DNA of 64,000 nucleotides from Streptomyces bohaiensis (lineage in GTDB: Bacteria > Actinomycetota > Actinomycetes > Streptomycetales > Streptomycetaceae): the NCBI RefSeq assembly GCF_012033785.1, contig NZ_JAAVJC010000001.1, positions 1 to 64,000 of the forward strand, in the 5' to 3' direction. A program made the translations under genes and the position numbers. Of the stretch, positions 2,660 through 29,610 are shown piece by piece. The notes under the pieces were generated by a model, which was not told the DNA's origin, ran no database searches, and saw only the letters and a program-made list of their open reading frames with translations. Positions within the stretch are counted from its first letter, which is position 1. Each line of letters starts with the position of its first letter.

Positions 2660-3230
2660 TCACCCGCCGTTCCTCCCCTGCCCGGGTGCTGTCCCCGGGC
2701 GGTCCGCGGCCGACTGGTCCGCTTCGTGGCCCCGGGCCCTCTCGGAGGGCGGGGCGCGGTGGCGCACTCGGCCCAGACGGTCTTGCCGGGGCTGCGGCGG
2801 CTGCGAACCCCCCAGGCGACGGTCAGCGCGTCGACCAGCAGCAGGCCGCGACCACCGCTGTCGCCCTCGCCGGGAGCTGCCCGTGCGGGCTGCGCCGGGT
2901 GGGTGTCGCTCACCTCGACGCGCATGACGCCCCGCGCCGTGTCGTGGTCGAGACGCAGCAGGAAGTCCCGCCCGGGGACGCGCCCGTGCAGCGCCGCGTT
3001 GGTGACCAGTTCGGCGACGACCAGGACGACGGTGTCGTGCAGCTCGCCGCCACGGGGGTGGCCCCACCTGCCGAGGTGGTGCCCGGTGAGCAACCGCGCG
3101 AGACGGGCGCCCCGCCGGGTCGCGGGGAAGCGCCGCGTGAACACGCCCGGCCGATCCGCCGGGGGCGCGGCGGCTACCGGCGCGAGGGGGCCGGAGTGAC
3201 GCCTGGGAGATGTGGTGCAGGTGCTGGCAT
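2660..3230 (-). pseudogene. Serine kinase-like ATPase domain protein, probably frameshifted
   Basis: The middle (about 3140-2745) encodes a GHKL ATPase domain like those of RsbW-type anti-sigma factors. An N box is visible (VAELVTNAALHG), then VSDTHPAQP and a GGRGLLLVDALT lid and G box. Streptomyces often pair such proteins with XRE regulators, and an XRE remnant lies just upstream on the other strand. The coding frame has no stop of its own; it runs through mbtH and sbnA to 1162. A neighbouring frame ends naturally at 2660 with a hydrophilic tail, so one indel near 2745 probably disrupted the gene. The 5' end is unclear: GTG 3144 is in frame, whereas ATG 3230 lies in a third frame that stops at 3174. 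Confidence 0.55.
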
Positions 3231-3431
3231 GACGGTCGCCCTGCCCAGGCGACCCTCCGCCGGGGAGGGCCACCGCTGGCACAGCGCACACTGTCCAGTC
3301 GACCCGTTGGACCGGGTCGATAGCTGTGCGTGATGATGTTCCGGTTCGCGCTGTGCGGGACGCCCAGCGGCGTCCGGCGGGCGCGGCGACGGAGCGGGCG
3401 TGGCCCGACAGCACAGGGGAAGACGGCTGCG

Positions 3432-3900
3432 GTGGCGACGGACAACGGGAACGGGGCGGAGGGCGTCGGCACCGGCGGGCGGCGCGGCGAGAGCGAACCA
3501 GTCTCCGACAGTCTCAAGACCTTCGGCGCGGTGCTGAAGGTGCTTCGCGAGGAAGCGCGCCTCACCCAGGAGCAGTTGGCTCCCATGGTGCGGTACTCCC
3601 CCGCGTAGGTCGCCGAGATCGAGCAAGGCCGCCGGTTCCCGCCGCGGGACCTGCTCGAACGGTCGGACGACGCCCTCGGATCGCCGGCCTCGAAGGTGCT
3701 CCACGCGGCGGCGAAGAGCCTCACCCGGAAGACGGGCCTGGCCTCGTGGTTCCTGGAATGGGCGGCCGTCGAGGAGTCCGCCATCTCTCTCTACTCGTAC
3801 GAGTGCACGGTCATCTCTGGTCTGCTGCAGCCCGAGCCCTGCATCCGCGCATTGTTCGACCAGCGACTACTGACGGAACGGCCCAACTGCGAGTTCGGCT
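3432..3900 (+). pseudogene. XRE/DUF5753-type regulator, nonsense codon and truncated
   Basis: The first segment encodes an XRE helix-turn-helix (LKVLREEARLTQEQLAPMV, then YSPA) and is cut by an in-frame TAG at 3606-3608. The same frame continues with VAEIEQGRRFPPRDLLERSD, the second half of the HTH. After that comes the start of a DUF5753-like region (WFLEWAAVEESA, then YECTVISGLLQPE). Relatives often have glutamine or a similar residue where the stop falls, so a CAG to TAG change is the simple explanation. Homology ends near NCEFG, where the sequence joins a reversed pglX fragment. The usual length is roughly 280 residues, so both the stop and the truncation make it non-functional. Confidence 0.8.
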
Positions 3901-4044
3901 CCGCCCCAGCTTCTTCGCCTGGTCGTACTCACCGCGCAGCCGTGCCCCGACCGCGGGAACGACCTTGACCTGTGCGTCCAGGTCGGTCTCTGCCGCCTTG
4001 AACTGCTTCTGCAGATCGCTGAGGAGGCTCTTGCGGTCGATCAC
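3901..4044 (-). pseudogene. pglX: 5' fragment of a BREX-2 adenine methyltransferase (PglX-like)
   Basis: Starting at ATG 4044 the frame encodes 48 residues, MIDRKSLLSDLQKQ to YDQAKKLGR. I recognise this as the N-terminus of PglX, the adenine-specific DNA methyltransferase of BREX type 2 / phage growth limitation systems, normally about 1200 residues long. After KKLGR homology stops abruptly and the frame runs antisense through the XRE remnant to 3811. Nothing of the methyltransferase domain remains. The fragment sits 77 bases downstream of another probable BREX remnant on the same strand. The identification rests on memory of the family N-terminus. Confidence 0.6.
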
Positions 4045-4121
4045 GAACTGCTCCCGAAGTGGTGACTAGAAGGCGATGCGAGAAGGAAAAGCGGAGAGAA
4101 GGGGCGGCGATCCGCCGTACG

Positions 4122-4673
4122 TCAGGCGGCGTCCGGCGGCAGATGTTTCCGCGCCACCCACGCGTCCGGCACGACGATCCACTCGTCGAACCCGGCCTGG
4201 TACAGCACGTTCTGCCCCGCCAGCCTCGGCGCCCGCGCCGGGTCGGACTGGGCGACCAGCAGCCACAGCGGGCTGCCGCCCTGCCGGGACTCCTCCGCGA
4301 GTGGGCCCAGAAGGTCGAAGGCGTCGTAACGGGCGAGCGCCGCGGTGTCGGTGAGCAGCAGCGGGCCGCCGGACTGGGCCAGACGCTCGCGAAGGAGCGG
4401 CTCGACGCGTCCCCACGCCTTGTCCGTACGGACCCGCAACTGCTGGTGGTGCCGGGGTGCCCGCCTCGGCGGCGTCGGCCTTGAGTACGGTCTCCCACGT
4501 CGGTTCGGCTTGGCCGCCTCGGCGATCACGGCGCGCAGCTCGGCCAGGAACAGCTCGGTCACCGAGACGACCGCCGCCCCGTAGGGCCGGTCGGCCAGCC
4601 GTCGTACCGCCGTCTCGGCGCCCTGCTGCGGCACGGTCAGGACCCGGAACCCGTCCTGCCCCGCCGAGTGCAC
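4122..4673 (-). pseudogene. 3' fragment of a probable BREX-associated gene with two compensating frameshifts
   Basis: The readable protein starts at the breakpoint (GQDGFRVLTVPQQ), includes AVVSVTELFLAELRAVIAEA, and ends with GGPLLLTDTAALARYD, LWLLVAQSDPA and FDEWIVVPDAWVARKHL. Between about 4500 and 4440 the coding sense moves into the neighbouring frame (TWETVLKADAAEAGTP) and then returns, so two opposite indels have accumulated. It lies immediately upstream of the pglX start on the same strand, where PglW would be expected. I suggest the C-terminus of PglW or another BREX-2 component but cannot confirm it. The 5' part is missing. Confidence 0.5.
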
Positions 4674-5614
4674 GAGTCGCTGCCCAGCAGCTGCTCGCGC
4701 TCACCCTGCGGGAACACCGCATCGGTGACCGGCTCTGGCCGGACCGGTGGAACGGCCTCGCGCCCTTCGACCGCTCGGCCGCACCGCTCCTGACGCACCT
4801 GATCGACGAGGGCTTCCTGGACAGCGACGACGGCATGCTCTTCATCGGCCCCGAGGCCGAGAAGCACTTCGGCCGCCGCCACTTCATGGAGCTCACCGCT
4901 TCCTTCACCGCGCCGCCCGAATTCACCGTCCTCGCCGGGCGCACCGAGATCGGCACCACCGACCCCACCGTGCTCACCGAGGAACGCCCCGGCCCGCGCC
5001 GCCTGCTGCTCGCCGGACGCAGCTGGCAGGTCACCTTCATCGACTGGGCCCGCCGCCGTGCCTTCGTCGAACCCGTCGAGGACGGCGGTGTGGCCAAATG
5101 GCAGGGCGGCGAGCCACGCGGCCTGTCGTTCACCCTCACCCGCGCCATGCGCGACGTCCTCCTCGGCACCGACCCGGACGTCCGGCTCACCCGCCGCGCC
5201 ACCGCCGCCCTCGCCGAGCTGCGCACCGATCGCGCCCCCCACGAGGTCCACCCCGCCGGCACTCTCGTGGTCCGCGAGGCCGATGCCACCCGCTGGTGGA
5301 CCTGGGCCGGCTACCGCGCCAACGCGACCCTCGCCGCGTCCCTCGGCAACCTGGCCGACCCCGTCCAGCGGCCCACCGACACCCATCTCCGCCTGCGCCA
5401 GGACCTCTCCCCTGCCGACTGGAAGTCCGCTCGCGCCGAACTCGGAGACGCTCTCACGCTGCCCACCGTCGACCCACGCGCCGTCCGCGGCCTGAAGTTC
5501 TCCGCTGCCCTCCCGCCGCGCGTGGCCACCGCCACCCTGGCCGAACGTCTCGCGGACTTCGACGGGGCACTGACCGCGGCGCGCGAGCCGGTACGGCTCG
5601 AATGGGGAATGTGA
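4671..5614 (+). pseudogene. 3' fragment of an Lhr-like DEAD/DEAH helicase (BREX-2 BrxHI-like)
   Basis: From about 4671 the plus strand encodes roughly 314 residues without a start codon at the homology boundary: VAAQQLLALTLREH, FIGPEAEKHFGRRHFMEL, then FTVLAGRTEIGTTDP, RRLLLAGRSWQVTFIDW and a C-terminus ending VRLEWGM. This matches the C-terminal part of Lhr-like (COG1201) helicases, a family that includes BrxHI of BREX type 2. The Walker A, DEAH and helicase-C motifs are absent, so it cannot be an active helicase. Its truncated 5' end meets the truncated 5' end of the minus-strand fragment, as expected if one deletion removed the divergent upstream halves of two genes. Confidence 0.6.
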
Positions 5615-5899
5615 ACTCGGTGCCCCGGTCCTGGCACTCCAGGTCCCTGCGCCTTCCTCCCGACGGTGCTGCCACATCCGCCCGGGCGGTGGCGGGCATC
5701 AGATCGTCGGGCGCGTGGAAGAGCGGAGACCGGAGCGCACGGAATCAAGCGACAGCGCCTGCAGATCGGCGCCTCCTCGTCGGCAGCCTGCAGGATCACC
5801 ACGCACTCCGGATGAGGAGTCGCCGGAACGGTGCCATCCCGGGCACGGTCCGGAGGTACGCCGGAAAAAATCATGCCTCGGGCGCATCACGCCCGGACG
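5615..5899. other. Gene-free 285 bases after the helicase remnant
   Basis: I see no coding frame I would defend here. Short open frames exist on both strands, but they are Arg/Pro/Ser-rich and lack ribosome binding sites. The A/T content is slightly above the surroundings near 5865-5880. It may be more decayed sequence from the lost locus. Confidence 0.4.
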
Positions 5900-6343
5900 T
5901 CAGAGCGGAAGATCGTCCGGGAGCAGCCGGAACGCCTTGTGGTGGCCCAGCGGGCGCACCGCGCGGAAGTCACGACGGTCGAGAGTGAGCACCGCGTCGG
6001 TGTCGAAGTCGGCGGCGAGGGCCACGTTCACCGCATCCGCCAGATCCAGGTCGAGGCCCCGGTAGCGGGCGCGCACGCTCTGGGCGGCCCCCAGGTGGTC
6101 CTCCGTGATCTCGGGGACTACGACACGGCCGCGACGCATCCAGTTCCGGATATCGTCGACAGCGCTGAGCGCGGCTTCACGACCGAGTTCGCGAGTGGCC
6201 ACGTGATCGATCTCCGCAAGAAGCAGCGGCGACATCACCAACAGACCGGCGGCCATGATCGCTACGTTCGACGCCTGGTGCTCGGGGTGGGTGGAGTCGA
6301 GCGCGGCGAGGAGCCCGGACGTATCCGCGATGACGATGATCAC
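5900..6343 (-). CDS. vapC: PIN-domain ribonuclease toxin, VapC family
   Basis: This 147-residue PIN-domain protein is the toxin of a type II toxin-antitoxin pair. Such proteins are Mg2+-dependent endoribonucleases that usually cut tRNA or rRNA until the antitoxin binds them. The acidic residues are visible: D7 in VIADTSGLLA, E44 in LLLAEIDHV, D103 in DLADAVNVA and D122 in LTLDRRDF. The GTG at 6343 overlaps the antitoxin stop as GTGA, so translation is coupled. It looks intact, unlike the genes to its left. Confidence 0.85.
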   Translation of the reverse strand: MIIVIADTSGLLAALDSTHPEHQASNVAIMAAGLLVMSPLLLAEIDHVATRELGREAALSAVDDIRNWMRRGRVVVPEITEDHLGAAQSVRARYRGLDLDLADAVNVALAADFDTDAVLTLDRRDFRAVRPLGHHKAFRLLPDDLPL

Positions 6344-6600
6344 GCAGCGGTGCCTGCTTCGGTCTCGTGACGTACAGCATCGGCCACCGTGTCACGCACC
6401 TCGCTCCTGTCCAGCGTGCGGCCGGCCCCCTCGAAAGTGCGGGAGAAGAGAGGCTCGTCCCAGACCCGGTTCGCCATGGCCGCGAGGTGGATGCCCTGCC
6501 GGATGATCTCGGCCTCACTGATGCCGCGCCGCTTGGCCGCCGCCTTGATGATGGCGAGGTCCTCCGGATCGGCATAGACATTGGTTCGCTTCATGGACAT
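6340..6600 (-). CDS. vapB: VapB-type antitoxin, ribbon-helix-helix
   Basis: This 86-residue protein begins MSMKRTNVYADPEDLAIIKAAAKRRGISEAEIIRQGI, the pattern of a ribbon-helix-helix DNA-binding domain (short strand, then two helices). The C-terminal half would wrap the toxin. ATG 6600 is chosen because a TATCGT -10 element ends six bases upstream and no Shine-Dalgarno is present; ATG 6594 is the alternative. It lies upstream of vapC with a 4-base overlap. Autorepression by the VapB-VapC complex is usual for the family. Confidence 0.8.
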   Translation of the reverse strand: MSMKRTNVYADPEDLAIIKAAAKRRGISEAEIIRQGIHLAAMANRVWDEPLFSRTFEGAGRTLDRSEVRDTVADAVRHETEAGTAA

Positions 6601-6640
6601 GTACCAACGATAACGTATGTACCAGGTTGATGTATAAGCG
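6598..6640 (-). promoter_or_regulatory. vapBC promoter with candidate operator repeats
   Basis: Reading toward vapB, a TATCGT hexamer (6612-6607) is followed by six bases and then ATG, so the transcript is predicted to be leaderless. The plus-strand heptamer TGTACCA occurs at 6600-6606 and again at 6618-6624, an 18-base spacing flanking the -10 element. Direct or inverted repeats here are typical sites for a VapB repressor. The segment is also A/T-rich against its surroundings. Confidence 0.5.
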
Positions 6641-7059
6641 GGAGTGAACCGGCTCCGACCAACCCCCACCCTGCTCGACGCCGGTCGCCGCCCACGGCGG
6701 ACGACGGGCCCGTGCCGCACGGTGCTGCCCGAAAGTGCCGCGCTGACGGCGTCTCGCGTGCCGGCACCCCGCGGGGGCGCGGTCTCTCAGGAGAGCAGTT
6801 CACGACGCTGGCAGCCGCCGGCCGCGAGCGCCCCCACCGTCACGCGCGCCCCTGGGCTCCGGCGACCTCCATCCCGGCCGGGACGGCGAAACTGTGGCGC
6901 GCGGGACCCGGAGAACCGGGTACCGTCATCGTCATGTTCTTCCAGACGCCGGTCTACGAGTGAGCGTGACGGGCCCCCGCTGACGTCCCCCGACGTCGCG
7001 TCGCCGCCCGTCCCCCCGATGAATCCGCAGATCACTTCACCTCACCACCGGGAGAACCC
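6641..7059. other. Gene-poor stretch with a possible leaderless micro-ORF
   Basis: No conventional gene is apparent. At 6934-6963 an ATG opens a nine-codon frame, MFFQTPVYE then TGA. A TACCGT hexamer sits seven bases before the ATG, the same geometry as the other leaderless starts in this window. About 97 bases separate it from the next gene, so it could be a leader peptide or chance. Confidence 0.3.
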
Positions 7060-7257
7060 GTGACCGACAGCAAGAACATCAACAATCCCGTGGGCCAGGG
7101 CGGCGGCCAGCGCAAGCGGCGGTCCCGCGCCGAGCAGCAGAACAACGGCCCGCACCGCAACCTCGACCGCCAGGGCGCCGCCGACCGCAAGGCGGAGCTG
7201 GTGCGCAAGATGCGCGAGAAGCTGAACACGGGCGAGAACGACACCGCGAAGAGCTGA
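7060..7257 (+). CDS. DUF6243 family protein
   Basis: This 65-residue hydrophilic, basic protein begins MTDSKNINNPVGQGGGQRKRRSRAEQ and continues NNGPHRNLDRQGAADRKAELVRKMREKLN. The sequence matches the small DUF6243 family found across Streptomyces, whose function is unknown. There is no signal peptide or membrane segment; the second half is a probable charged helix. GTG 7060 follows GGGAG by about five bases. Confidence 0.75.
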   Translation: MTDSKNINNPVGQGGGQRKRRSRAEQQNNGPHRNLDRQGAADRKAELVRKMREKLNTGENDTAKS

Positions 7258-7528
7258 CGCACCGCCGCCACTGGGCGGCACGTTCGACGTGCGGCGGGAG
7301 CGGAGTCCTACCTGGCCACCCGACGACACCGAGACGACCACGGACCCGGTCGACTGCCACCACGCCGAGAGAACGAGGCGCGGCCGGGGGCTCGTCTGCC
7401 CACCGGCCTCACCCCCGCCGCCGAAAGCGACGTCGACGCCCGGCCGCGCGAACGGCCACGCCGGCCCCGGCCCCACCCAGCCCCGGGAACGTGGTGCCCG
7501 ATTCACCCACCAGGCAGCACACCGCCGG
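7258..7528. other. Gene-free 271 bases
   Basis: Nothing coding is convincing here. The end of the stretch leads into the -10 element of the next toxin-antitoxin pair. Confidence 0.4.
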
Positions 7529-7541
7529 TAGGATGGGTCGC
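7529..7541 (+). promoter_or_regulatory. Leaderless-type -10 element of the second antitoxin gene
   Basis: TAGGAT at 7529-7534 is followed by seven bases and then ATG. No separate Shine-Dalgarno is present, so the transcript probably starts at or next to the start codon. Confidence 0.5.
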
Positions 7542-7805
7542 ATGAGTGAAGCCACCGGCAAGTACTCCATCACCATGCCGCAGGACATCGCCGAGGCAGC
7601 ACGCGCACGCAGCGGGCCGTCGGGCCTCTCCGCCTATGTCGCCGCAGCGGTCGCGCGTCAGATCGAGCGCGACAATCTCAACGAACTCATCGCGGTCGGT
7701 GAGGCGGAGCACGGCCCCGTCACCGAGGAGGAGATCCAGGCTCTGCGTGAGGAGCTCCACCGGGCCCGACTGCAGCAGGGTCCGGGCCGGGCGGATGCCG
7801 CGTGA
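7542..7805 (+). CDS. Antitoxin of a second VapBC-type module
   Basis: This 87-residue protein starts MSEATGKYSITMPQDIAEAARARSG and continues GLSAYVAAAVARQIERDNL. That is a strand followed by two helices, consistent with a ribbon-helix-helix antitoxin. The acidic C-terminus (PVTEEEIQALREELHRA) would contact the toxin. It overlaps the PIN gene by GTGA. The family name is inferred from the partner, because antitoxin sequences vary widely. Confidence 0.75.
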   Translation: MSEATGKYSITMPQDIAEAARARSGPSGLSAYVAAAVARQIERDNLNELIAVGEAEHGPVTEEEIQALREELHRARLQQGPGRADAA

Positions 7806-8218
7806 CCCGTGCTCCGACCGCGGTCCCGGGCGGCACTCTCGTACTGGACAGCGAAGGCCTGGCCAAGGCTGTCCAGCGTGACCGTGCCACCACCACCTGG
7901 CTCGCGCTCGCCAGAGCCGACGACCTCCGGGTCATCACCTCCGCGGCCACCTTGGTCGAGGTCGCGCACCCGCGGATCAACCGCCCCGCTCTGGAGTGGA
8001 CCCTCTCCCGGCTGGTCGTGGAGCCCGTCACCGACCCACTCGCCCGGCACGCCGCCGCGCTGCTCGCCGACGCCGGACTCCACGGCCACAAGCACGCGAT
8101 CGACGCCATGCTTGCCGCGACCGCGCTCGCCGCCCCCGGCCCTGCCACCGTGCTCACGTCCGACCCGGAGGACCTGACCGCTCTGTGCGGGACACGGGTC
8201 GCCGTGATCGCTGTCTGA
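7802..8218 (+). CDS. PIN-domain toxin of a second VapBC-type module
   Basis: This 138-residue PIN-domain protein carries D16 in TLVLDSEGLAK, E53 in ATLVEVAH, D101 in HAIDAMLAATAL and D121 in TSDPEDL. The predicted activity is RNA cleavage. Both this protein and its antitoxin are unrelated in detail to the first pair, so the two modules were acquired separately rather than duplicated. It is the last accessory gene before the conserved core. Confidence 0.8.
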   Translation: MTRAPTAVPGGTLVLDSEGLAKAVQRDRATTTWLALARADDLRVITSAATLVEVAHPRINRPALEWTLSRLVVEPVTDPLARHAAALLADAGLHGHKHAIDAMLAATALAAPGPATVLTSDPEDLTALCGTRVAVIAV

Positions 8219-8280: not shown

Positions 8281-9645
8281 TCAGGCCTCCTTCTTGACCG
8301 GCTCCAGGATCGCCACGCACTCCAGGTGGTGGGTCATCGGGAAGAGGTCGAAGGCGCGGAGGAAGCGCGGCCGGTAGCCGGCGGTGCGGAAGTGGGCCAG
8401 GTCCCGGGAGAGCGCGGCCGGGTCGCAGGCGACGTAGGCGATGCGGCGCGGGCCGAGCGCCGCGACGCGCTCGACGGTGCGCTTCCCGGCACCGGCGCGC
8501 GGCGGGTCGAGGACGACGAGGTCCGCCTCGCTGATGCCGGTGCGCGGCAGGACCTTGTCGACCGTGCCGTGCTCGATGCGGACCCGCGGGTAGTCGGCCA
8601 GGTTGTGGCGGGCGTCCTCGACGGCGCGCTTGCCGGACTCGATGCCCAGCACGGCGCCCTCCTCGCCGACCCGGTCGGCGAGCGCCCCGGCGAAGAGGCC
8701 GACACCGCAGTAGAGGTCGAGGGCGCTCTCGCCCTTGCGCGGGGTGAGGCCGCGCATCACCGCGTCGATGAGCAGCTCGGCGGCCTGGGGGTGGACCTGC
8801 CAGAAGCCGCCGGCGCCGACACGCCAGGTGCGGTCGTCGGCACGCTCCCGGACGAAGCTGCGGCCGTGGACCGGCAGCACCTTCTTGTCCTTCTCGTTGA
8901 CGCGCATCACCGAGACGGGGCGGTCCAGCTCGACGATGGGCAGCCGCCCGCCGGGGCGGGGGGTGAGGACGACCTGGCGGTCCTGCGAACCGGTGGCCGC
9001 GATGGCGTCGACGGCGGCGATCTGCGGCCACTCCCGGGCCTCGATGCCGAGTTCGCTGACGCCCTCGGCGGCGATCAGGCAGCGGTCGATCGGTTCGACC
9101 TCGTGCGAGCGGTGGCGCCGGAGCCCGGCGCGGCCGTCGGCGTCGACCGCGTACTGGACGCGGGTGCGCCAGGCGGGGACCTCACCGGCGGGCAGCTTGT
9201 CACCGGGTGCCGGTTCGACGGTGCCGTCCCAACCGGCCTCCTCGGGGGTCATCCGCGCGAGGTGGCCGAGCTGCTCGGTGAGGACGTCGCCCTTCAGCCG
9301 CCGCTGGCGCCCGGGCTTCACGTGCTGCCAGTCGCAGCCGCCGCACCGCCCCGGCCCGGAGAACGGGCAGGGCGCCTCGATGCGGTCCTTGTCGGCCTCG
9401 ATGACCTCGACGGCGTCCGCCCGCAGGAAGCGGGAATCCTCCCGGCCGTCGGTGACCCGCACCCGGACGCGCTCACCGGGAAGGGTGTGCCGCACGAACA
9501 GCACCTGCCCGCCGGGGGTGCGGGCCACGCAGTGACCGCCGTGCGCGACCGGCCCGACCTCCACCTCGTACTCGGTGCCGACCAGGGACGCGGCCTGCTC
9601 GGCGGGCGTCACGGTGTCGGTGCCGGTGTCACGGTCGGAAGTCAT
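8281..9645 (-). CDS. TRAM-domain class I RNA m5U methyltransferase (RlmD/TrmA family)
   Basis: This 454-residue enzyme is predicted to transfer a methyl group from SAM to C5 of uridine in RNA, most likely 23S rRNA. A TRAM RNA-binding domain occupies about residues 20-80. Iron-sulfur cysteines follow (C93, C101, C104 in CPFSGPGRCGGC, plus one in IDRCL). The SAM site is ALDLYCGVGLFAG, the catalytic cysteine is C407 in YVACDPAALSRD, and the general base is E442 in HLECVAIL. ATG 9645 is chosen because upstream residues are not conserved. The exact target uridine cannot be told from sequence. Confidence 0.85.
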   Translation of the reverse strand: MTSDRDTGTDTVTPAEQAASLVGTEYEVEVGPVAHGGHCVARTPGGQVLFVRHTLPGERVRVRVTDGREDSRFLRADAVEVIEADKDRIEAPCPFSGPGRCGGCDWQHVKPGRQRRLKGDVLTEQLGHLARMTPEEAGWDGTVEPAPGDKLPAGEVPAWRTRVQYAVDADGRAGLRRHRSHEVEPIDRCLIAAEGVSELGIEAREWPQIAAVDAIAATGSQDRQVVLTPRPGGRLPIVELDRPVSVMRVNEKDKKVLPVHGRSFVRERADDRTWRVGAGGFWQVHPQAAELLIDAVMRGLTPRKGESALDLYCGVGLFAGALADRVGEEGAVLGIESGKRAVEDARHNLADYPRVRIEHGTVDKVLPRTGISEADLVVLDPPRAGAGKRTVERVAALGPRRIAYVACDPAALSRDLAHFRTAGYRPRFLRAFDLFPMTHHLECVAILEPVKKEA

Positions 9646-10040
9646 CGGAAGGGGCTCCGTTGCGTCGGCCCCGACCGGCGCGGTGCGCGCTGCGCGCTGC
9701 GGGCGCGCGCACGGCACGGCGTTCGCCGGTGGCGGGGTGCGGTGTGTGGGTGGTTCCGCCCGGCGTCGCGGTGGCTCGCGGCCGGTCCGGACCCGGGGGA
9801 CGCTTCAGTCTAGGGCCTCGCCGGGCGCGACCGACCGGCGCGGCCCCGTGCCGCCCGGGCCCTCGGCGCGGTCGGTGCGGACCGTTCGACACACCGCGGG
9901 GGCGGCGGGCCCGCGGTCACCGGGGCGGACGCGGGCACCGGGGCGCGCCGCCGGGCGGAAGGGAGTGGCGGGGCGGCGACGGTCCCTGCCGAGGCTTACC
10001 GTGTGCTTGCTGGGATCGGACCATCGGCCACGGGGGTCAC
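9646..10040. promoter_or_regulatory. Divergent promoter region, methyltransferase and trk genes
   Basis: This 395-base stretch is very G/C-rich and holds no credible gene. A TAGACT -10-like hexamer on the minus strand (9812-9807) could serve the methyltransferase. The methyltransferase and the K+ regulator genes diverge from here. Confidence 0.35.
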
Positions 10041-13999: not shown

Positions 14000-14485
14000 T
14001 CACTGTCCTTTCAGGGCGTAGGAGTTGTGCTCACCGGCGTGGCCACCGGTGGAGCCGAACCCCCCGGTGTCACGCGCGGAACCGGGCAGCTGCGCCACCT
14101 CGTGGAACCGCACGGCCTCGACCCGCTGGACGACCAGCTGTGCGATCCGGTCGAACCGCTCGAAGCGCACGTTCTTCCGGGGGTCGAGGTTGACGACGAT
14201 GACCTTGATCTCTCCACGGTACCCGGCGTCGACCGTGCCCGGGGCGTTCACGAGCGCGACTCCGCAGCGGGCGGCCAGACCCGACCGGGGGTGGACGAAC
14301 GCCGCGTAACCGTCGGGGAGGGCGATGGACACCCCCGTCGGCAGGACCGCCCGCTCGCCCGGTTCGAGCTCCGCGGCCTCGGTGGTCACCAGGTCGCAGC
14401 CGGCGTCGCCGGGATGGGCCCGCGCGGGCAGGGGGACGTCGGGATCGGTCCGGCGGATGAGGACATCCACAGGCGCGTGGTCCAC
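14000..14485 (-). CDS. dut: Deoxyuridine 5'-triphosphate nucleotidohydrolase
   Basis: This 161-residue trimeric dUTPase hydrolyses dUTP to dUMP and pyrophosphate, which keeps uracil out of DNA and feeds dTMP synthesis. All motifs are visible: HPGDAGCDL, the RSGLAARCGV phosphate loop, VNAPGTVDAGYRGEIKV with the catalytic aspartate, a FDRIAQLV motif and the C-terminal GGFGSTGGH lid. GTG 14485 (VDHAPVDVLIRR) follows GAGGTG and fits the family length better than the upstream start at 14518. Neighbouring DUF3710 is co-transcribed. Confidence 0.95.
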   Translation of the reverse strand: MDHAPVDVLIRRTDPDVPLPARAHPGDAGCDLVTTEAAELEPGERAVLPTGVSIALPDGYAAFVHPRSGLAARCGVALVNAPGTVDAGYRGEIKVIVVNLDPRKNVRFERFDRIAQLVVQRVEAVRFHEVAQLPGSARDTGGFGSTGGHAGEHNSYALKGQ

Positions 14486-14580
14486 TCTCAGGTCACCTCG
14501 ATGGCTTCCGGTCAGCACTCACGGTGCAGACCATACCGCCGCGCGGTGCCCGGCGTGTCCCGCCTGCCATGCTTGGTCCC

Positions 14581-15063
14581 ATGCAGCAGTACGACGAACG
14601 ACTCCACGTCCCCCGCAGCTGGTGGCTGCTCGGTCTGCTCAGCTCGGCGCTGGTGGGGGTGACGCTGCTGCCCCTGGGGGTGATCCCGCTGCTCGCGGGC
14701 ACGGCGGCTGCCGCCGCGGCCGCCGCCGCTGCGCTCAGCTCCTACGGCTCCGCCCGGATCCGGATCGTCGGGGACGTGCTCGTGGCGGGCTCGGCGCGGC
14801 TGCCGCTGAGCGCCCTCGGTGAGGCGTACGCCCTGGACGCGGACGAGGCGCGGGCCTGGCGCACGCACCGGGCCGACGCCCGGGCGCACCTGCTGCTGCG
14901 GGGCTACATCGCCACCGCGGTACGGGTGGAGGTCACCGACCCGCAGGACCCCACACCGTATCTGTACCTCTCCACGCGCCACCCGCTGCGGCTGGCGCGT
15001 GCGCTGTCGGCCGTTCCCGCCGGTGAGGCGGCCCGGCCGGAGGTCCGGGAGGCGGAGCGCTGA
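14581..15063 (+). CDS. DUF3093 membrane protein
   Basis: This 160-residue protein has two closely spaced hydrophobic helices (SWWLLGLLSSALVGVTLL and GVIPLLAGTAAAAAAAAAAL) followed by a soluble domain (RIRIVGDVLVAGSARLPLSALGE, then RPYLYLSTRHP-like strands). It matches the DUF3093 family, of unknown function. ATG 14581 has no Shine-Dalgarno; a CATGCT hexamer seven bases upstream may make it leaderless. It diverges from dut. Confidence 0.75.
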   Translation: MQQYDERLHVPRSWWLLGLLSSALVGVTLLPLGVIPLLAGTAAAAAAAAAALSSYGSARIRIVGDVLVAGSARLPLSALGEAYALDADEARAWRTHRADARAHLLLRGYIATAVRVEVTDPQDPTPYLYLSTRHPLRLARALSAVPAGEAARPEVREAER

Positions 15064-15072
15064 CGAGCGTCC

Positions 15073-15098
15073 GGGCGAGACCCCTGTGGGTCCCGCCC
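15073..15098. terminator. Hairpin terminator between convergent genes
   Basis: GGGCGAGACCC and GGGTCCCGCCC pair with a single A-C mismatch around a four-base loop. It lies between DUF3093 and DUF4193, which converge. Confidence 0.55.
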
Positions 15099-15133
15099 GC
15101 CGTTCCTCTGTCGTGTGGTTCCGCCGCCCGGCC

Positions 15134-15433
15134 TCACGCCGCGCAGTCGCGGCAGATCGGGTGCCCGTTCTTCTCGGCGGCCAGCTGCGACCGGTGGTGA
15201 ACGAGGAAGCAGCTCATGCAGGTGAACTCGTCGGCCTGCCGCGGGAGCACCCGCACCGAGAGCTCCTCGTTGGACAGGTCCGCGCCGGGAAGCTCCAGCC
15301 CCTCGGCCTGCTCGAACTCGTCGACGTCGACGTTGGAGGCCGACTTGTCGTTCCGCCGGGCCTTGAGCTCCTCGATGCTGTCCTCGTTGACATCATCTTC
15401 GGTCTTGCGTGGAGTGTCGTAATCCGTAGCCAT
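15134..15433 (-). CDS. DUF4193 zinc-ribbon-like protein
   Basis: This 99-residue acidic protein has a disordered N-terminal half (MATDYDTPRKTEDDVNEDS) and a C-terminal putative zinc site, CMSC...ICRDC with HHRSQL between. It matches DUF4193, a small actinobacterial family of unknown function. ATG 15433 follows GGGGGAG at a normal distance. No operon partner is evident; the next gene upstream is the histidine kinase. Confidence 0.85.
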   Translation of the reverse strand: MATDYDTPRKTEDDVNEDSIEELKARRNDKSASNVDVDEFEQAEGLELPGADLSNEELSVRVLPRQADEFTCMSCFLVHHRSQLAAEKNGHPICRDCAA

Positions 15434-15702
15434 GTCTGTTCTCCCCCTCTGGGTGTCTGGTGTCTCCAGCGCGGTCAACGCGCGAGAGGCCGGTCTTGTG
15501 CCCGACCTGAGGCGGAGATTTTGCCTCACTTCAAGCCCTGTTATTCAACCGACACGTAGCCGGACGCCTGAAGAGGTGATGATCCGGGCCACCGGCCGGG
15601 CGGCGCACAGGCAGAACGGCCGGTCGGGGCCGTCCCGTGCCGCCCTCGAAGGGGCGGAGTATGGGATTGGTCACATCTGCCGGTTCCTGCCGCTACATCA
15701 TC

Positions 15703-16950
15703 TCAGACCGGCAGAAAGACCCGCATCGTGAGCCCCCCGTTCTCGCGCGGCTCCGCCGTGACGGAACCGCCGTGAGCACGGGCGACGGACCGGACGATCG
15801 AGAGCCCCAGCCCGACTCCCTTGTCACTGCCCGTGCGCTCGGTGCGCAAGCGTCGGAACGGCTCGAACATCGTGTCCACCTCGTAGGCGGGCACCACCGG
15901 TCCGGTGTTGGTGACCACCAGCTCGGCGACGCCGTCGCGCACCTCCGTTCGGACCTCGACCCAGCCGTCGGTCCCCACGTTGTAGCGGACGGCGTTCTGC
16001 ACGAGGTTGAGGGCGATGCGCTCCAGCAGCACCCCGTTGCCCCGGACGCAGGCCGCCCTGCGCACACCGCGCAGCTCGACGCGGGCCTCTGCGGCCTCGG
16101 CACGGGTCTGTTCCACCGCACGATCGGCCACCTCCGCGAGGTCCACCGGCTTGCGGTCGACGATCTCGTTCTCACTGCGTGCGAGCAGCAACAGGCCCTC
16201 GACCAGTTGCTCGCTGCGCTCGTTGGTCGCCAGAAGGGTACGCCCCAACTGGGTGAGCTCCGGCGACGCCTGCGGGTCGGAGAGCTGCACCTCCAGCAGC
16301 GTCCGGTTGATGGCCAGCGGGGTGCGCAGCTCGTGGGAGGCGTTGGCGACGAAGCGCTGCTGGGCGGTGAAGGCCCGGTCGATGCGGTCCAGCATCTCGT
16401 CGAAGGTGTCCGCGAGCTCCTTCAGCTCGTCGTCGGGGCCGTCCAGCTCGATCCGGCGGTGCAGGTCGGAGCCGGCGACGCGGCGGGCGGTGCGGGTGAT
16501 GCGACCCAGCGGCGACAGCACGCGGCCCGCCATGACATACCCCAGCGCGAAGGCGGCCACCGCCAGACCCAGCAGCGCCAGCAGCGACCGGCTCAGCAGG
16601 ACGTCCAGTGCGGCGGCGCGCTGCAGGTCGGCGCATTGCGCGTACCAGATGCGGAAGGTCTCGGCGTCGACCGGACCGCTGATGCTCGGGCAGGCGTCGG
16701 AGGTGATCTGCACCTCCGCCTGGCTGGCGAAGCGGAACGGGACGGCGCTGCCGTCGTGGAGCGCGTTGGCGGCGAGCAGGTAGATGATGGCGAGCAGCAC
16801 GATCCCGGCCATCAGGAACATCCCGCCGTAGAGCAGGGTGAGGCGGATCCGGATCGTCGGCCGCAGCCACGGCGTGCGTCTGGTGGGCTGCGGGTCCCAG
16901 TGCGGTTTCGGGGGCGCCGTCGGACGCGGGGGCGGCGGGGCGGAGCTCAC
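15703..16950 (-). CDS. Two-component sensor histidine kinase
   Basis: This 415-residue kinase has a Pro-rich cytoplasmic start, a first membrane helix (about 45-70, MFLMAGIVLLAIIYLLAA), an extracytoplasmic loop with cysteines in DACPSI and YAQCADL, and a second helix (LLALLGLAVAAFALGYVMAG). HAMP, HisKA (FVANASHELRTPLA, phosphorylated His) and HATPase domains follow, the last with NLVQNAVRYN and GVGLGLSIVRS. It probably autophosphorylates and passes phosphate to the regulator encoded just upstream, with which it overlaps by GTGA. The paired extracytoplasmic cysteines suggest a disulfide-held sensor loop. The signal is unknown. Confidence 0.85.
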   Translation of the reverse strand: MSSAPPPPRPTAPPKPHWDPQPTRRTPWLRPTIRIRLTLLYGGMFLMAGIVLLAIIYLLAANALHDGSAVPFRFASQAEVQITSDACPSISGPVDAETFRIWYAQCADLQRAAALDVLLSRSLLALLGLAVAAFALGYVMAGRVLSPLGRITRTARRVAGSDLHRRIELDGPDDELKELADTFDEMLDRIDRAFTAQQRFVANASHELRTPLAINRTLLEVQLSDPQASPELTQLGRTLLATNERSEQLVEGLLLLARSENEIVDRKPVDLAEVADRAVEQTRAEAAEARVELRGVRRAACVRGNGVLLERIALNLVQNAVRYNVGTDGWVEVRTEVRDGVAELVVTNTGPVVPAYEVDTMFEPFRRLRTERTGSDKGVGLGLSIVRSVARAHGGSVTAEPRENGGLTMRVFLPV

Positions 16951-17606
16951 TGGCCGATCCGGTACCCGGAACCGGGCACGGTCGTGATCACGGGCGGCTC
17001 CCCGAGCTTGCGGCGCAGCGTCATGACGGTGACGCGCACCACGTTGGTGAAGGGGTCGGTGTTCTCGTCCCAGGCCTTCTCCAGCAGCTGCTCTGCGGAG
17101 ACGACCGCCCCCTCGGCACGCATGAGCACTTCCAGGACGGCGAACTCCTTCGGGGCCAGCTGCACCGGGCGCTCCTCGCGGAAGACCTCGCGCCGGTTGG
17201 GGTCGAGCCGGATGCCGGCGCGCTCCAGCACGGGGGGCAGCGCGGTGGTGGCACGGCGGCCGAGGGCGCGCACCCGGGCGACCAGTTCGGCGAAGGCGAA
17301 GGGCTTGGGGAGGTAGTCGTCGGCGCCGATCTCCAGTCCCTCGACCCGGTCGCTGACGTCGCCGGACGCGGTCAGCATCAGCACGCGGGTGGGCAGGCCC
17401 AGCTCGACGATGTGTCGGCAGACGTCGTCCCCGTGCAGGAGGGGGAGGTCCCGGTCGAGGACGACCACGTCGTACTCGTTGACGTCGACGCGCTCGCGGG
17501 CCGCGGCACCGTCGTAGACGACGTCCACGGCCATCGCCTCGCGGCGCAGCCCGGTGGCGACGGCGTCCGCGAGCAGTTCCTCGTCCTCGACGACGAGTAC
17601 GCGCAC
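16947..17606 (-). CDS. OmpR/PhoB-family response regulator
   Basis: This 219-residue regulator has an N-terminal receiver domain with acidic pocket VVEDEEL, phosphoacceptor aspartate in VVVLDRDLPLLHG, and conserved Thr and Lys in LMLTASG and DYLPKPFAF. The C-terminal winged helix (about 125-219) ends with PPVITTVPGSGYRIG. It binds DNA after phosphorylation by the adjacent kinase. GTG 17606 follows GGAGGAGG. It is the first gene of the two-gene operon. Confidence 0.88.
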   Translation of the reverse strand: MRVLVVEDEELLADAVATGLRREAMAVDVVYDGAAARERVDVNEYDVVVLDRDLPLLHGDDVCRHIVELGLPTRVLMLTASGDVSDRVEGLEIGADDYLPKPFAFAELVARVRALGRRATTALPPVLERAGIRLDPNRREVFREERPVQLAPKEFAVLEVLMRAEGAVVSAEQLLEKAWDENTDPFTNVVRVTVMTLRRKLGEPPVITTVPGSGYRIGQ

Positions 17607-18038
17607 TGTGCTCCTCCTCCGTTACGGCAGCCGCGGCGCGGCTGCCGGCGTCATCCTCTCGCGCCATCGGTAAACCGGCGGTTAGCGTCGGCGCGGCGGC
17701 GGGGGCGTGCCCCCGGCCGGGGGTGGCGCGCAGTGCCGCACCGCGCAACGTCGTGGCGGCCCGGCCGGGCGCGACGGCCCGCTCGGCGGTGAGGGCGGGG
17801 CCGGTCGGACGTGGCGGGAGGGTGGCCGTCCGGTGGTGGTCCGGTGACCGTCGGAGACGGTGGGATTTCCGTGGCGTGGCGAGGTTTCCCGCTTTCACGG
17901 CGGGGGGAAGACCCCTGGACACCCCACGATCGGCCGTTCCGGGCGGCAAGCCGTGTCGCTGCCGACCCGCCGGACCCGACCGTGGCCGCACATCCACCGG
18001 CACTCAGTGCCGCCGACCCGAGAGTAGGGGGCACCCCC
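17607..18038. other. Intergenic region upstream of the two-component operon
   Basis: No gene is evident in these 432 bases. The segment next to the regulator start holds the inverted repeat AACCG-G-CGGTT near 17670, which could be part of a promoter or autoregulatory site. The rest is low-information GC-rich sequence. Confidence 0.35.
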
Positions 18039-18209
18039 ATGGACGCGTTCACCACCGGCATCCTCCAGCGCATACGGCACGCCGAATCGAGCCTGCACGA
18101 GGCACGGGAGACGGGCGACATGTACACCGTGGACGTCGAACAGGCGGAGCTCGACGACCTGCGCCGGATCGCGGCCGATCACGGTGTCGAGGTCGGGACC
18201 CCCGCCTGA
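18039..18209 (+). CDS. Small conserved actinobacterial protein, function unknown
   Basis: This 56-residue protein (MDAFTTGILQRIRHAES, then GDMYTVDVEQAELDDLRRIAADHGVEV) is predicted to be almost entirely helical, with an acidic middle. AGGGGG precedes the ATG. The third-position GC bias supports coding, and a strong terminator follows. I do not recognise a function. Confidence 0.65.
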   Translation: MDAFTTGILQRIRHAESSLHEARETGDMYTVDVEQAELDDLRRIAADHGVEVGTPA

Positions 18210-18260
18210 CCCCCGCCTGACGCACTCCGCGGCCCGCTCCGCGATCCACCGATCCACGCC

Positions 18261-18297
18261 CGATGTGCCCCGGACCTCCGCGGTCCGGGGCACATCG
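18261..18297. terminator. Strong bidirectional hairpin terminator
   Basis: A perfect 16-base stem, CGATGTGCCCCGGACC, pairs with its complement around a five-base loop (TCCGC). It separates the small plus-strand gene from the convergent inositol monophosphatase gene. Confidence 0.85.
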
Positions 18298-18316
18298 GTG
18301 TGCGGGTGGGCACCGC

Positions 18317-19147
18317 TCAGTCGTGCCAGGCTCCGAGCTCCTCCAGCAGGGGCTGGAGGAGCGGGAACACGCCGGGCGAGGCGGCGACGGTGAGGTCCCC
18401 GTCGGGGCGGGTGCCGGGGCGGCCGCCGGTGAGTGCGCCGCCCTCGCGGGCGATGAGGTCACCCGCGGCGAGGTCCCAGGGGGCGAGCCCGCGCTCGTAG
18501 AAGGCGTCCAGCCGCCCGCCGCCGACGTCGCAGAGGTCGATCGCGGCGGAGCCGGAGCGCCGGATGTCACGGACGGCGGGGATCAGCCGCTGCGCGACGG
18601 CGGCCTGATGGGTCTTGACCGCGGTGACGTAGTTGAAACCGGTGCCGACGAGGGCGTGCTCCAGCGGAGGCGAGGGCCGCGCCGTCATCCGCTCCGCGGG
18701 CCCGTCGCCCCCGGTCCGCCAGGCACCGCCGCCGATGGTCGCGTGGTAGCTCTCCCGCCGCAGGGGGGCCTCGACCACCGCGGCGACGGTCTCCCCGTCC
18801 TGCTGCACGGCGATGGAGACGGCCCAGTTCGGCAGCCCGTAGAGGTAGTTCACCGTCCCGTCGAGGGGGTCGATCACCCAGCGGACGCCGCTGGTGCCCT
18901 CGGTGGTGCCGCCCTCCTCGCCGAGGATCGCGTCGTCGGGCCGGTGCTCCGCGATGTACTCGCAGATGAGCTTCTCGGCGGCGAGGTCCATCTCGGTGAC
19001 GACGTCGATGGGACTGGACTTGGTGGCGGCGACGCCGAGGTCGGCGGGGCGGCCGTCGCGCAGCAGCGCGCCGGCCCGGGCGGCCGCCTCTCGGGCGAGT
19101 GCGAGCAGTGGCGCGTGGGTGTCGGTGTGCTCGTCGGCTGGGGTCAC
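18317..19147 (-). CDS. Inositol monophosphatase family phosphatase
   Basis: This 276-residue Mg2+-dependent phosphatase belongs to the IMPase/SuhB/CysQ family. Metal ligands are visible in ILGEEGG, in WVIDPLDGTVNYLYGLP and in the second metal motif APWDLAAGDLIAREGG. Substrates in this family include myo-inositol 1-phosphate, histidinol phosphate, NADP(H) and fructose 1,6-bisphosphate; the sequence does not decide between them. GTG 19147 follows GGAGGAG closely. Confidence 0.85.
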   Translation of the reverse strand: MTPADEHTDTHAPLLALAREAAARAGALLRDGRPADLGVAATKSSPIDVVTEMDLAAEKLICEYIAEHRPDDAILGEEGGTTEGTSGVRWVIDPLDGTVNYLYGLPNWAVSIAVQQDGETVAAVVEAPLRRESYHATIGGGAWRTGGDGPAERMTARPSPPLEHALVGTGFNYVTAVKTHQAAVAQRLIPAVRDIRRSGSAAIDLCDVGGGRLDAFYERGLAPWDLAAGDLIAREGGALTGGRPGTRPDGDLTVAASPGVFPLLQPLLEELGAWHD

Positions 19148-19271
19148 GGGGCTCCTCCGGGTTGTCGTGCGGTGACGGCCGGCCCGCTGCCGCGCGGCGA
19201 GGTACCGGCGGCGGCCGGTGGGGACGGCGCGGGCGGGCCGGTCCGGCGTCGGGTGGTGAGGGGCGAGCGGC

Positions 19272-20396
19272 TCAGGAGCCGTCGGCGCCCGCGGCTGCGG
19301 GGCGGGGCGTCCTGCCGGGGCAGCAGCCGACGGGGCACACGTCGTGCCAGGGGCCCGACTCCCCGAGGGCGCACCGGACGGGGTGCTCCTCCCGGGCGGT
19401 CGCGGCGCGCTCCAGCACGAGGTCGCGGACGGCGGCGACGAAGCGCGGGTCGGTGCCGACGGTGGCGGAGCGCACGGCGGGCAGCCCCAGTTCGGCGGCG
19501 ACGGCCATGGCCTCGGTGTCGAGGTCGTAGCGGACCTCCATGTGGTCGGAGACGAAGCCGACCGGGACCATGACGACGGCCGGGGTCTCCTGCTCGCGGA
19601 GCGTCCGCAGGTGGTCGCAGATGTCGGGCTCCAGCCACGGGATGTGGGGCGGGCCGCTGCGGGACTGGTAGACGAGTTCCCACGGGTGGCGGGTGCCGGT
19701 GGCGGTGGCGACCGCCTCCGCGATGTGGCGCGCCGCCTCCAGGTGCTGGGCGACGTAGGCGCCGCCGGCGCCGTGGCCGGCGGGCGGGCCCGAGGTGTCG
19801 GCCGCGTTGGTCGGGATGGAGTGGGTGCAGAAGGCGAGGTGGGCGTGGTCCCGCACCTCGGCCGGGAGTTCCGCCAGCGCGGCGAGGACGCCGTCGGTCA
19901 TGGTGTCGAGGAACCCGGGGTGGTCGTAGTAGACGCGCAGCTTGTCGGTCCGCGGCGGGCGGAGCCCCTCGGCGAGCAGGGTGTCGCGTGCCGCCGCGAG
20001 GTCCTCGCGGTACTGGCGGCAGCCGGAGTAGGAGGAGTAGGCGGAGGTGACGAGGGTCAGCACGCGGCGGTGGCCGGCCTCGGTGATCTCCCGGAGCGTG
20101 TCGGTGACGTACGGCGGCCAGTTCCGGTTGCCCCAGTACACGGGGAGGCCGACGCCGTGGTCGTCGAGGTCGGTCCGGATGGCGTCGAGCAGCCGGCGGT
20201 TCTGCTCGTTGATGGGGCTCACACCGTCGAAGAGGTAGTAGTGCTCGCCCACCTCTTCGAGACGCTCGCGCGGGATGCCGCGTCCCCGGGTCACGTTCTC
20301 CAGGAAGGGGACGACGTCGTCGGGGCCCTCGGGCCCTCCGAAGGAGAGCAGCAGGAGCGCGTCGTAGGGGGCGGGGTCGGTCGGGTGCTGCGACAT
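19272..20396 (-). CDS. hemH: Coproporphyrin/protoporphyrin ferrochelatase
   Basis: This 374-residue enzyme inserts Fe2+ into a porphyrin at the end of haem synthesis; in actinobacteria the substrate is coproporphyrin III. The N-terminus is [15 protein letters not shown], the metal-site histidine lies in FCTHSIP, and [16 protein letters not shown] and [16 protein letters not shown] are conserved. Cysteines in [19 protein letters not shown] near the C-terminus fit the [2Fe-2S] cluster known in actinobacterial members. ATG 20396 follows GGGAGGA; an ATG at 20405 lies too close to that site. Confidence 0.92.
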
Positions 20397-20811
20397 ACCG
20401 GCCATCCTCCCACCCGCTCGCGCGGCGTCGGCGGCGACCGGCGGACCGCCGCGCTCCGCGGCCGGGCGGGTCGGCGGACAGGGGCGCGGCGCGACACGCC
20501 GAGGAATGCGGCGGGGTGTCAACTCGCGTCGGGGCGGTGAAGTCCGTTGGCTCGCTTCCGCGCTCCGATGGCCCTAATGGAGTAGTCTGTCAACTCCTGG
20601 CTGCGGCCCGCCGACCAGCGTTTCGGGCCCTCGTTCGCGCCGGTCACCGCATGTGGCCGGGTTGCCACCGTGTCACAGCGGTGGTTGTGGGCGCGGCCCG
20701 ACACACCGGCTGGGTCGGAGTGGTTGTGGCAGGCTGCACCCGGGCAGGAGACATTCGCCCAACTGGGGCAGCGACGGGGAGTCGTCGGCCGGCACCACCC
20801 GGGAGGTTCAC
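20397..20811. promoter_or_regulatory. Divergent hemH/sepH control region
   Basis: The 415 bases hold no gene. The nonamer TGTCAACTC occurs twice (20517-20525 and 20588-20596). The second copy overlaps the inverted repeat GGAGT...ACTCC (20579-20597), whose centre contains TAGTCT, a plausible -10 element for sepH. This could be an operator. Confidence 0.4.
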
Positions 20812-21801
20812 GTGCCCGAACTGCGTGTCGTGGCCGTCAGCAACGACGGCACACGACTGGTGCTGAAGGCTGCCGACAACACGGAGTACACACTCCCGAT
20901 CGACGAGAGACTTCGCGCCGCGGTCCGCAACGACCGCGCTCGCCTGGGGCAGATCGAGGTCGAGAACAACCTCCGGCCCCGTGACATCCAGGCGCGCATA
21001 CGGGGCGGGGCGACAGCGGAGGAGGTCGCGGATCTCGCCGGCATCCCGGTGGACCGCGTCCGACGGTTCGAGGGCCCCGTGCTGGCGGAGCGCGCCTTCA
21101 TGGCGGAACGCGCCCGCAAGACGGCGGTCCGGCGCCCCGGCGAGTCCACGGGTCCGATGCTCGGCGAGGCGGTGGCGGAGCGGCTCATCTCCCGTGGCGC
21201 CGCCAAGGAGTCGGTGCGTTGGGACAGTTGGCGCCGGGAGGACGGCACCTGGGAGGTGCTGCTGGTGTTCATGGCCGGCGGTGAGCCCCAGTCGGCGACC
21301 TGGACGTTCGACCCCCCGCGACGGCTGGTGCAGGCCGCTGACGACGGGGCGCGCTCGCTGCTGGGCGACACCGACGAACCGCCGGAGCCCAGTACGCCGT
21401 TCGTGCCGCGGATCGCCCGGCTCCCCCGGGACGGCGACGGCGCCCGGCAGCGGGTCGGCCGCGCGCCGGGGGACGGATTGAGCGCGCCGGCGGAGCCGGA
21501 TTCCCTGACCAGCCTGTTGGAGGCGGTCCCCTCGTTCCGGGGCGATCTCGTCGCCCCGGCGGCGGAGGTGGTCCCGTCGGAGGAGGCGGAGCTGCTGCCC
21601 GCCGAGGAGCGGCCCGCCGCGGGGGCCGGTTCGGCCTATGCCGACGTCCTGATGCCGCGGGCGGTGGCGGGCCACCGCGACCGGCTGACGGGTACCACGG
21701 ACCGGCAGGCCGAGGCGGACGGTGTGCGGCCGGGGAGGCGGGCCGCGGTGCCCAGTTGGGACGAGATCGTGTTCGGCACCCGGCGTTCCAAACCCGAGTA
21801 G
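20812..21801 (+). CDS. sepH: Cell division regulator SepH
   Basis: This 329-residue protein opens with PELRVVAVSNDGTRLVLKAA and carries a DUF3071 helix-turn-helix-like domain (RPRDIQARIRGGATAEEVADLAGIPVDRVRRFEGP). In Streptomyces, SepH stimulates FtsZ assembly and is needed for sporulation septation. The second conserved block is VRWDSWRREDGTWEVLLVF. The long acidic middle is probably disordered, and the C-terminal PSWDEIVFGTRR is a conserved end motif. GTG 20812 follows GGGAGG; the longer open frame from 20653 has no family support. Confidence 0.9.
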   Translation: MPELRVVAVSNDGTRLVLKAADNTEYTLPIDERLRAAVRNDRARLGQIEVENNLRPRDIQARIRGGATAEEVADLAGIPVDRVRRFEGPVLAERAFMAERARKTAVRRPGESTGPMLGEAVAERLISRGAAKESVRWDSWRREDGTWEVLLVFMAGGEPQSATWTFDPPRRLVQAADDGARSLLGDTDEPPEPSTPFVPRIARLPRDGDGARQRVGRAPGDGLSAPAEPDSLTSLLEAVPSFRGDLVAPAAEVVPSEEAELLPAEERPAAGAGSAYADVLMPRAVAGHRDRLTGTTDRQAEADGVRPGRRAAVPSWDEIVFGTRRSKPE

Positions 21802-21843
21802 CCCCGGGCCCGCGCTGTTGTGGGCGCACGGACCCGGGGACCG

Positions 21844-21874
21844 GCGCGGCGCGACCGTTGTGGTCGCGCCGCGC
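21844..21874. terminator. Bidirectional hairpin terminator
   Basis: A perfect 13-base stem, GCGCGGCGCGACC with its complement and a GTTGT loop, lies between the convergent sepH and sulfurtransferase genes. Confidence 0.8.
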
Positions 21875-21896
21875 TGTCGTGTCCGCGGGTCGGCTC

Positions 21897-22724: not shown

Positions 22725-22879
22725 GGGCCCATTGTCGGCCGTCCGGCGCACGCCCGGCGACAGCGTCTCCCGCACACTCGTTTACCGGGGGTCACCGGGG
22801 GCAGGAGTGACACCGAGTGCCTTGGGCTCCGTGGACGACGGCGGCCGGGGCCCCTCAGGCTTGGCGAGGAGAGGCGACG

Positions 22880-23662: not shown

Positions 23663-23679
23663 CGCCCCTCACGGGCGGC

Positions 23680-23723
23680 GGGCCCGGCATCCGGTCGTGA
23701 CGACCGGGGTGCCGGGCCCGCGC
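23680..23723. terminator. Long bidirectional hairpin terminator
   Basis: A stem of about 20 pairs, GCGGGCCCGGCA then CCGGTCGT with a small internal mismatch, separates the VOC gene from the convergent thymidine kinase gene. Confidence 0.8.
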
Positions 23724-23762
23724 TGTGTCCCGGCGCCGACGCACCGAGGGGTGGCGACCGCG

Positions 23763-24440: not shown

Positions 24441-24452
24441 GGATCGGCTCCG

Positions 24453-29589: not shown

Positions 29590-29610
29590 CCCCCGGCACC
29601 CGCGCCATCG

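Follow-up and report, generated by a model that had tools for sequence, protein, structure and literature searches.

We use "the window" for the whole stretch of DNA analysed here, the 64,000 nucleotides at positions 1 to 64,000 of Streptomyces bohaiensis contig NZ_JAAVJC010000001.1. Towards its left end, pieces of three genes of a BREX type 2 (Pgl) defence locus lie between flanks that are shared with two close relatives, S. lonarensis NCL716 and S. spiramenti, referred to below as the sisters. The features of the region are as follows; J1 to J3 are junctions.

26-2731: left flank, common to both sisters; includes ornithine-cyclodeaminase-family and MbtH-like genes (Pfam OCD_Mu_crystall, MbtH)
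2725-3123, (-): HATPase (anti-sigma-like ATPase) gene with its 3' end at J3; probably part of the remnant (Pfam HATPase_c_2, E 6.6e-10)
about 2731/2732: J3, left junction, at the end of the flank shared with the sisters and at the 3' end of the HATPase gene
3432-3869, (+): 5' part of an XRE-DUF5753 regulator gene, with an in-frame stop at 3606-3608 and the 3' end lost; probably part of the remnant (HTH_31 and the start of DUF5753)
3870-3899: J2, about 30 bases matching neither XRE nor pglX (alignments and k-mer search)
3898-4044, (-): first 49 codons of pglX (PADLOC and NCBIfam matches; DNA match to S. lonarensis)
4122-4683, (-): 3' end of pglW, last ~185 codons, with two compensating indels (PADLOC, NCBIfam, alignment to the sisters)
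4682-4683: J1, pglW and brxHI joined head to head with an overlap of at most 2-3 bp (base-by-base comparison with both sisters)
4682-5614, (+): last ~310 codons of brxHI, frame still open (PADLOC; collinear with S. lonarensis 32511-35089)
5900-6720, (-): right flank, PIN-domain toxin and RHH partner, VapBC-like (Pfam PIN, RHH_1)
7491-8218, (+): right flank, second PIN-domain gene and its partner (Pfam PIN for 7802-8218; occurs in S. spiramenti)

A sequence-only reading had taken 3901-5614 for the remains of a BREX type 2 locus, made up of the first 48 codons of a PglX-like methyltransferase, a probable second BREX gene with two compensating indels and the C-terminal third of an Lhr/BrxHI-like helicase. 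The first of these pieces was recognized by PADLOC, which aligned 3811-4044(-) to PglX residues 1-49 of 1189 (E 3.2e-7), and by NCBIfam model NF033451 (E 1.6e-6, 26 bits); the score is far below the whole-protein cut-off of 400, as expected because the piece has only 49 residues. The second gene proved to be pglW, with 4122-4673(-) corresponding to PglW residues 1227-1396 of 1403 (PADLOC, E 3.5e-26; NCBIfam NF033442, E 3.4e-33), and the two indels are 5 bases and 1 base in excess of S. lonarensis and S. spiramenti, leaving the piece net in frame. The helicase is indeed the C-terminal part of BrxHI (4661-5614(+), residues 384-694 of 698, PADLOC E 3.7e-101), but somewhat more than a third survives, namely ~43% of the gene (310/715 codons, with the S. 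lonarensis gene as reference). Pfam gave no match for any of the three BREX pieces, and NCBIfam none for the BrxHI piece. At the DNA level the pglX5'-pglW3' stretch (3900-4683) is 92% identical to S. lonarensis in inverted orientation, and the brxHI piece shows 24 differences from S. lonarensis, 18 of them at third codon positions. The open frame of the brxHI piece has no start of its own and begins within the reversed pglW.

Comparison with relatives confirmed that the window holds a relic of a BREX type 2 locus, with its pieces at the site where relatives keep the whole locus. We searched 392 Streptomyces genomes with window positions 3901-5614, and 99 matched at E <= 1e-40; a single match running through both parts occurred solely in the window's own genome. 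(For S. lonarensis NCL716, entries G137 and G416 are the same record.) Alignment to related strains with an intact locus, the check proposed with the sequence-only reading, showed that both sisters carry a six-gene BREX-2 locus at the orthologous site, between the same flanks as in the window. In S. lonarensis the left flank lies at 84-2709, pglW-pglX at 16646-17434, inverted with respect to the window, and brxHI with the right flank at 32511-35089, oriented as in the window. Its six genes match PglW, PglX, BrxC/PglY, PglZ, BrxD and BrxHI (PADLOC; family models were applied to the S. lonarensis genes only). The S. spiramenti genes are arranged likewise, and in most 500-base steps the two sister operons share 95-99% identity. 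The left flank of the window is 95% identical to the start of the S. lonarensis contig (up to 2688) and 96% identical to S. spiramenti (up to 2731). Thus the sister loci are like the window in site and flanks, and the pieces are 92-97% identical to them in DNA; the window differs in having no pglY, pglZ or brxD, in lacking most of pglW, pglX and brxHI, and in the inversion of pglX5'-pglW3'. The length between the shared flanks is ~1.95 kb in the window versus ~29.8 kb in S. lonarensis and ~38.4 kb in S. spiramenti, although part of this difference may consist of gains in the sisters. Beside pglW, S. lonarensis carries a large helicase-nuclease gene (L125:5147-10363) that is absent from the window and matches PADLOC models PDC-S37 (E 8.6e-51) and MkoC (E 1e-38).

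The two toxin-antitoxin pairs said to remain beside the lost system are there, but as flanking genes: both also stand beside the S. spiramenti BREX locus, and the first also beside that of S. lonarensis. The PIN/RHH pair falls within 4682-7277, a stretch collinear with S. lonarensis. The gene at 7491-7805, which is paired with the second PIN gene, had no Pfam family match. Next to these genes is one at 8281-9717, presumably an RNA methyltransferase; the orientation of the BREX-2 locus relative to this gene is opposite between two other genomes, G035 and G031 (L021-L022 versus L023-L024).

The remnant probably reaches left beyond 3901, to about 2732, and the broken HATPase/XRE pair at 2725-3896 probably belongs to it, since 25 of 43 usable Streptomyces loci have such regulators in the pglX-pglY gap (see below). 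Both sisters carry an XRE-DUF5753 gene in this gap, on the strand opposite to the operon, and the window XRE is 72% identical in nucleotides to that of S. lonarensis. The same gap holds an XRE gene and a partial HATPase match in S. tardus, and a HATPase gene with an XRE 3' remnant in S. longispororuber. The closest relatives of the window HATPase in other genomes adjoin an XRE gene.

The frequency of such regulators comes from a survey of 76 further loci, picked solely by a brxHI match and leaving out 7 of the 99 matched genomes (G028, G109, G162, G173, G265, G284, G299). Only 43 of the 76 loci were usable, with pglX and pglY both in view and in order, because the 20-kb regions miss pglX where the insert is long. 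An XRE match was present in the pglX-pglY gap of 25 of these 43, and 17 of the 25 also had a HATPase match on the opposite strand, the two possible orientations accounting for 9 and 8 loci; no regulator was seen in the remaining 18, 11 of which have a gap below 800 bases and 7 a larger one. An earlier, partly XRE-selected set had given a regulator in the gap in 11 of 16 loci. Loci with XRE-DUF5753 in this position include L126:1184-2068 (S. lonarensis), L153-L228, G013, G016, G127 and G184. Pfam returned nothing for the one neighbouring HATPase stretch tried (G013, L149:5400-5723), so that for the surveyed neighbours the label HATPase denotes tblastn similarity only.

The regulator gene also diverges fast. 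Compared sister to sister (S. lonarensis 17290-22068), identity across the BREX locus is 95-99%, with three exceptions: central pglX, where two 500-base steps drop to 61-69% and those flanking them to 84-85%; the DUF5753 half of the XRE gene, at 76%; and the first pglW step, at 87%. Among pairs of BREX-embedded XRE genes with PglY at least 91% identical and a measurable XRE, the DUF5753 half was less alike than the HTH half in 8 of 8; in less similar pairs the HTH half can be the more diverged one, as in G306/G335, where it is 79% identical versus 87%. The HATPase/XRE-DUF5753 pair, divergent and set between pglX and pglY, may truly belong to Streptomyces BREX-2 as an accessory that modulates the toxic PglX or detects infection, its DUF5753 half diversifying together with the target-recognition region of PglX; we hold this tentatively, at somewhat less than even odds. 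XRE-DUF397 pairs are known regulators in Streptomyces (PMC10364602). The words XRE, DUF5753 and HATPase are absent from the main text of a recent BREX survey (PMC12839542, NAR 2026), and our literature search found no paper joining DUF5753 and BREX.

The arrangement of the genes in relatives bears on how the relic arose. In both sisters pglW, pglX and brxHI occupy one strand, with pglY, pglZ and brxD in between, and these three genes also share a strand in G031, G035, G388, S. longispororuber and S. tardus, as do pglW and brxHI in G236. Four genes separate pglW from brxHI in both sisters, G031, G035, G236, G388 and S. tardus, and the spacing is ~13-15 kb or more in the intact relatives mapped with a complete locus and both genes in view. 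The pglX5'-pglW3' stretch of the window matches on the (-) strand, and brxHI with the right flank on the (+) strand, in both sisters, G031, G035, G236 and G388. Because pglW, pglX and brxHI share one strand in relatives, an inversion is needed in the window lineage. One intact-looking locus elsewhere has a nearly complete pglW-pglX-pglY-pglZ block inverted relative to brxD-brxHI (L172, G207:C1:1817300-1837250).

The shared breakpoint at which pglW and brxHI both lose their 5' ends, earlier put near 4672, is real and lies at 4682/4683. In alignments to both sisters and S. longispororuber, the match to pglW stops at 4683 and that to brxHI starts at 4682; the corresponding positions are 4682/4682 with G031 and 4683/4685 with G035. 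The overlap of at most 2-3 bases at J1 suggests end joining as the mechanism of the pglW/brxHI join. An inverted repeat at the pglW/brxHI breakpoints was considered as a driver and rejected, about 130 bases having been compared with an overlap of 2-3 bp at most. Around J2, 14- to 20-mers of 3866-3899 were absent from the four closest loci.

We propose, with a probability of roughly 0.9, that the window carries a dead BREX type 2 locus, produced by inversion and deletions from a sister-like ancestor. The ancestor would have had pglW-pglX-(regulator)-pglY-pglZ-brxD-brxHI on one strand at the same site, as the sisters do today. Inversion would have brought the 3' portions of pglW and brxHI together head to head at 4682/4683, with almost no sequence in common, and deletions would have taken most of pglX, the whole of pglY, pglZ and brxD, and the 5' end of both pglW and brxHI; the order of these events is one that we infer. 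Inverting the window order HATPase-XRE-pglX-pglW yields exactly pglW-pglX-XRE-HATPase, which favours a single inverted segment, 2732-4683, with an inner deletion at 3870-3899.

A different placement of the regulators would alter the extent of the inversion. If the HATPase/XRE pair had stood upstream of pglW, a single event would have inverted only pglX5'-pglW3' (3898-4683) while deleting sequence on both sides of it. This route takes fewer steps, and G007 does carry such a pair just upstream of pglW in matching orientation; moreover, the pglX-pglY gap of the sisters has no HATPase match, and the window XRE shows the low identity to the sisters' XRE given above, versus 92% for pglW-pglX. However, in both sisters and S. 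tardus the XRE gene occupies the pglX-pglY gap, where S. longispororuber has both a HATPase gene and an XRE 3' remnant. The low XRE identity is not decisive, because XRE and the pglX middle diverge fast even between the sisters (85.5% and 83.7%, versus 97.0% for pglW). We consider this route possible but rather unlikely. The route in the sequence-only reading, a single deletion that removed both 5' ends of a divergent pglW/brxHI pair, would leave the same head-to-head junction, but it is scarcely credible given that the two genes share a strand, separated by four others, in both sisters, G031, G035, G236, G388 and S. tardus; inversion plus deletions are needed.

Two further explanations were weighed. 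The assembly is a draft of 547 contigs and the left flank lies 2.7 kb from a contig end, so an intact locus could have been misassembled into a chimera; this is very unlikely, since no other piece of the locus occurs in the rest of the genome (40 of 1230 candidates scored; stated completeness 99.23%) and the pieces carry frameshifts and an in-frame stop. The brxHI piece, open in frame and differing from S. lonarensis mostly at third positions, is not pseudogene-like by itself, which counts against a dead locus, and it might still be used, for example as a free C-terminal domain. Such use is highly improbable: the piece has no start of its own, its frame beginning inside the reversed pglW, second-position changes amount to 2/10 in the window lineage versus 0/8 and 0/8 in the sisters, and its conservation can be put down to the recency of the loss.

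The genes missing from this relic were not found elsewhere in the genome. A 19-kb S. lonarensis DNA query (14001-33000, starting inside pglW) gave, at E <= 1e-6 and with 40 of 1230 first-look candidates scored, three matches, all within the relic. At this sensitivity there is no second copy of the lost genes, and a second complete BREX-2 locus elsewhere in the genome, considered as a candidate, was rejected. In the same search PglY/BrxC ATPase, PglZ and BrxD had no match, no pglX was found beyond the 49 codons, and of pglW and brxHI no more than the last ~185 and ~310 codons are left. In a PglW profile search of the genome the relic fragment was the best of 20 matches, and the 19 others aligned to the profile's kinase region. 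Absent from the relic are the PglX body, both kinase regions of PglW and its nuclease part, the BrxHI helicase core, PglY, PglZ and BrxD; other helicase families match S. lonarensis BrxHI only to about residue 411, and the window piece starts at about 405. Because of these missing domains and genes, we infer that the relic cannot protect against phage.

Lineage-specific substitutions in the three pieces were counted with S. longispororuber as outgroup, with small numbers and a rough model. The window lineage has 25 (3, 6 and 16 at first, second and third codon positions), the S. lonarensis lineage 20 (5, 0, 15) and the S. spiramenti lineage 20 (6, 0, 14), so that second-position changes are in excess in the window (6/25 versus 0/40 in the sister lineages, Fisher p 0.002). 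A simple, rough mixture puts the share of window substitutions that postdate the loss at 0.5 (0.2-0.9). The loss came after the window lineage had separated from the two sisters, yet it is not very recent. The earlier claim that it is not recent thus holds only in part: an estimated half of the substitutions postdate it, but the sisters keep the locus and 16 of the 25 changes are at third positions.

Similar relics may exist in other species. Of the 76 surveyed loci, 8 had brxHI less than 75% covered and neither pglY nor pglZ seen; these are uncurated candidates and may include divergent helicases instead of relics. G387 was dropped as a ninth because the surveyed region ended inside brxHI. 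On this uncurated 8 of 76, with shortened brxHI and no core genes, BREX-2 relics and BREX-2 loss in Streptomyces look frequent. A further candidate came from an earlier fetch (L140, G067:C5:312001-331000), where truncated pglX and brxHI lie beside XRE and HATPase genes. It resembles the window in this, and in having no pglY, pglZ or brxD in 19 kb. In contrast to the window, native order and orientation are kept, as a plain deletion would leave them, and the surviving part of pglX is residues 958-1176.

The loss event itself is ordinary; its value lies in the well-placed sisters and the embedded regulator pair, the latter being the newest by-product of the analysis. In the literature on BREX relics or inversions in Streptomyces, no description of this locus was found by title or abstract start. 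In S. coelicolor, PglX is reported to be toxic when PglZ is absent (PMC4365076). The window relic has lost both the pglX body and pglZ, and does not resolve the order of their loss; given this toxicity, however, relics could reveal the permissible order of gene loss. With intact sisters at the same site, the relic documents a defence locus of ~20 kb lost by inversion and deletion within a small clade, and BREX-2 loss in Streptomyces could be counted and dated.
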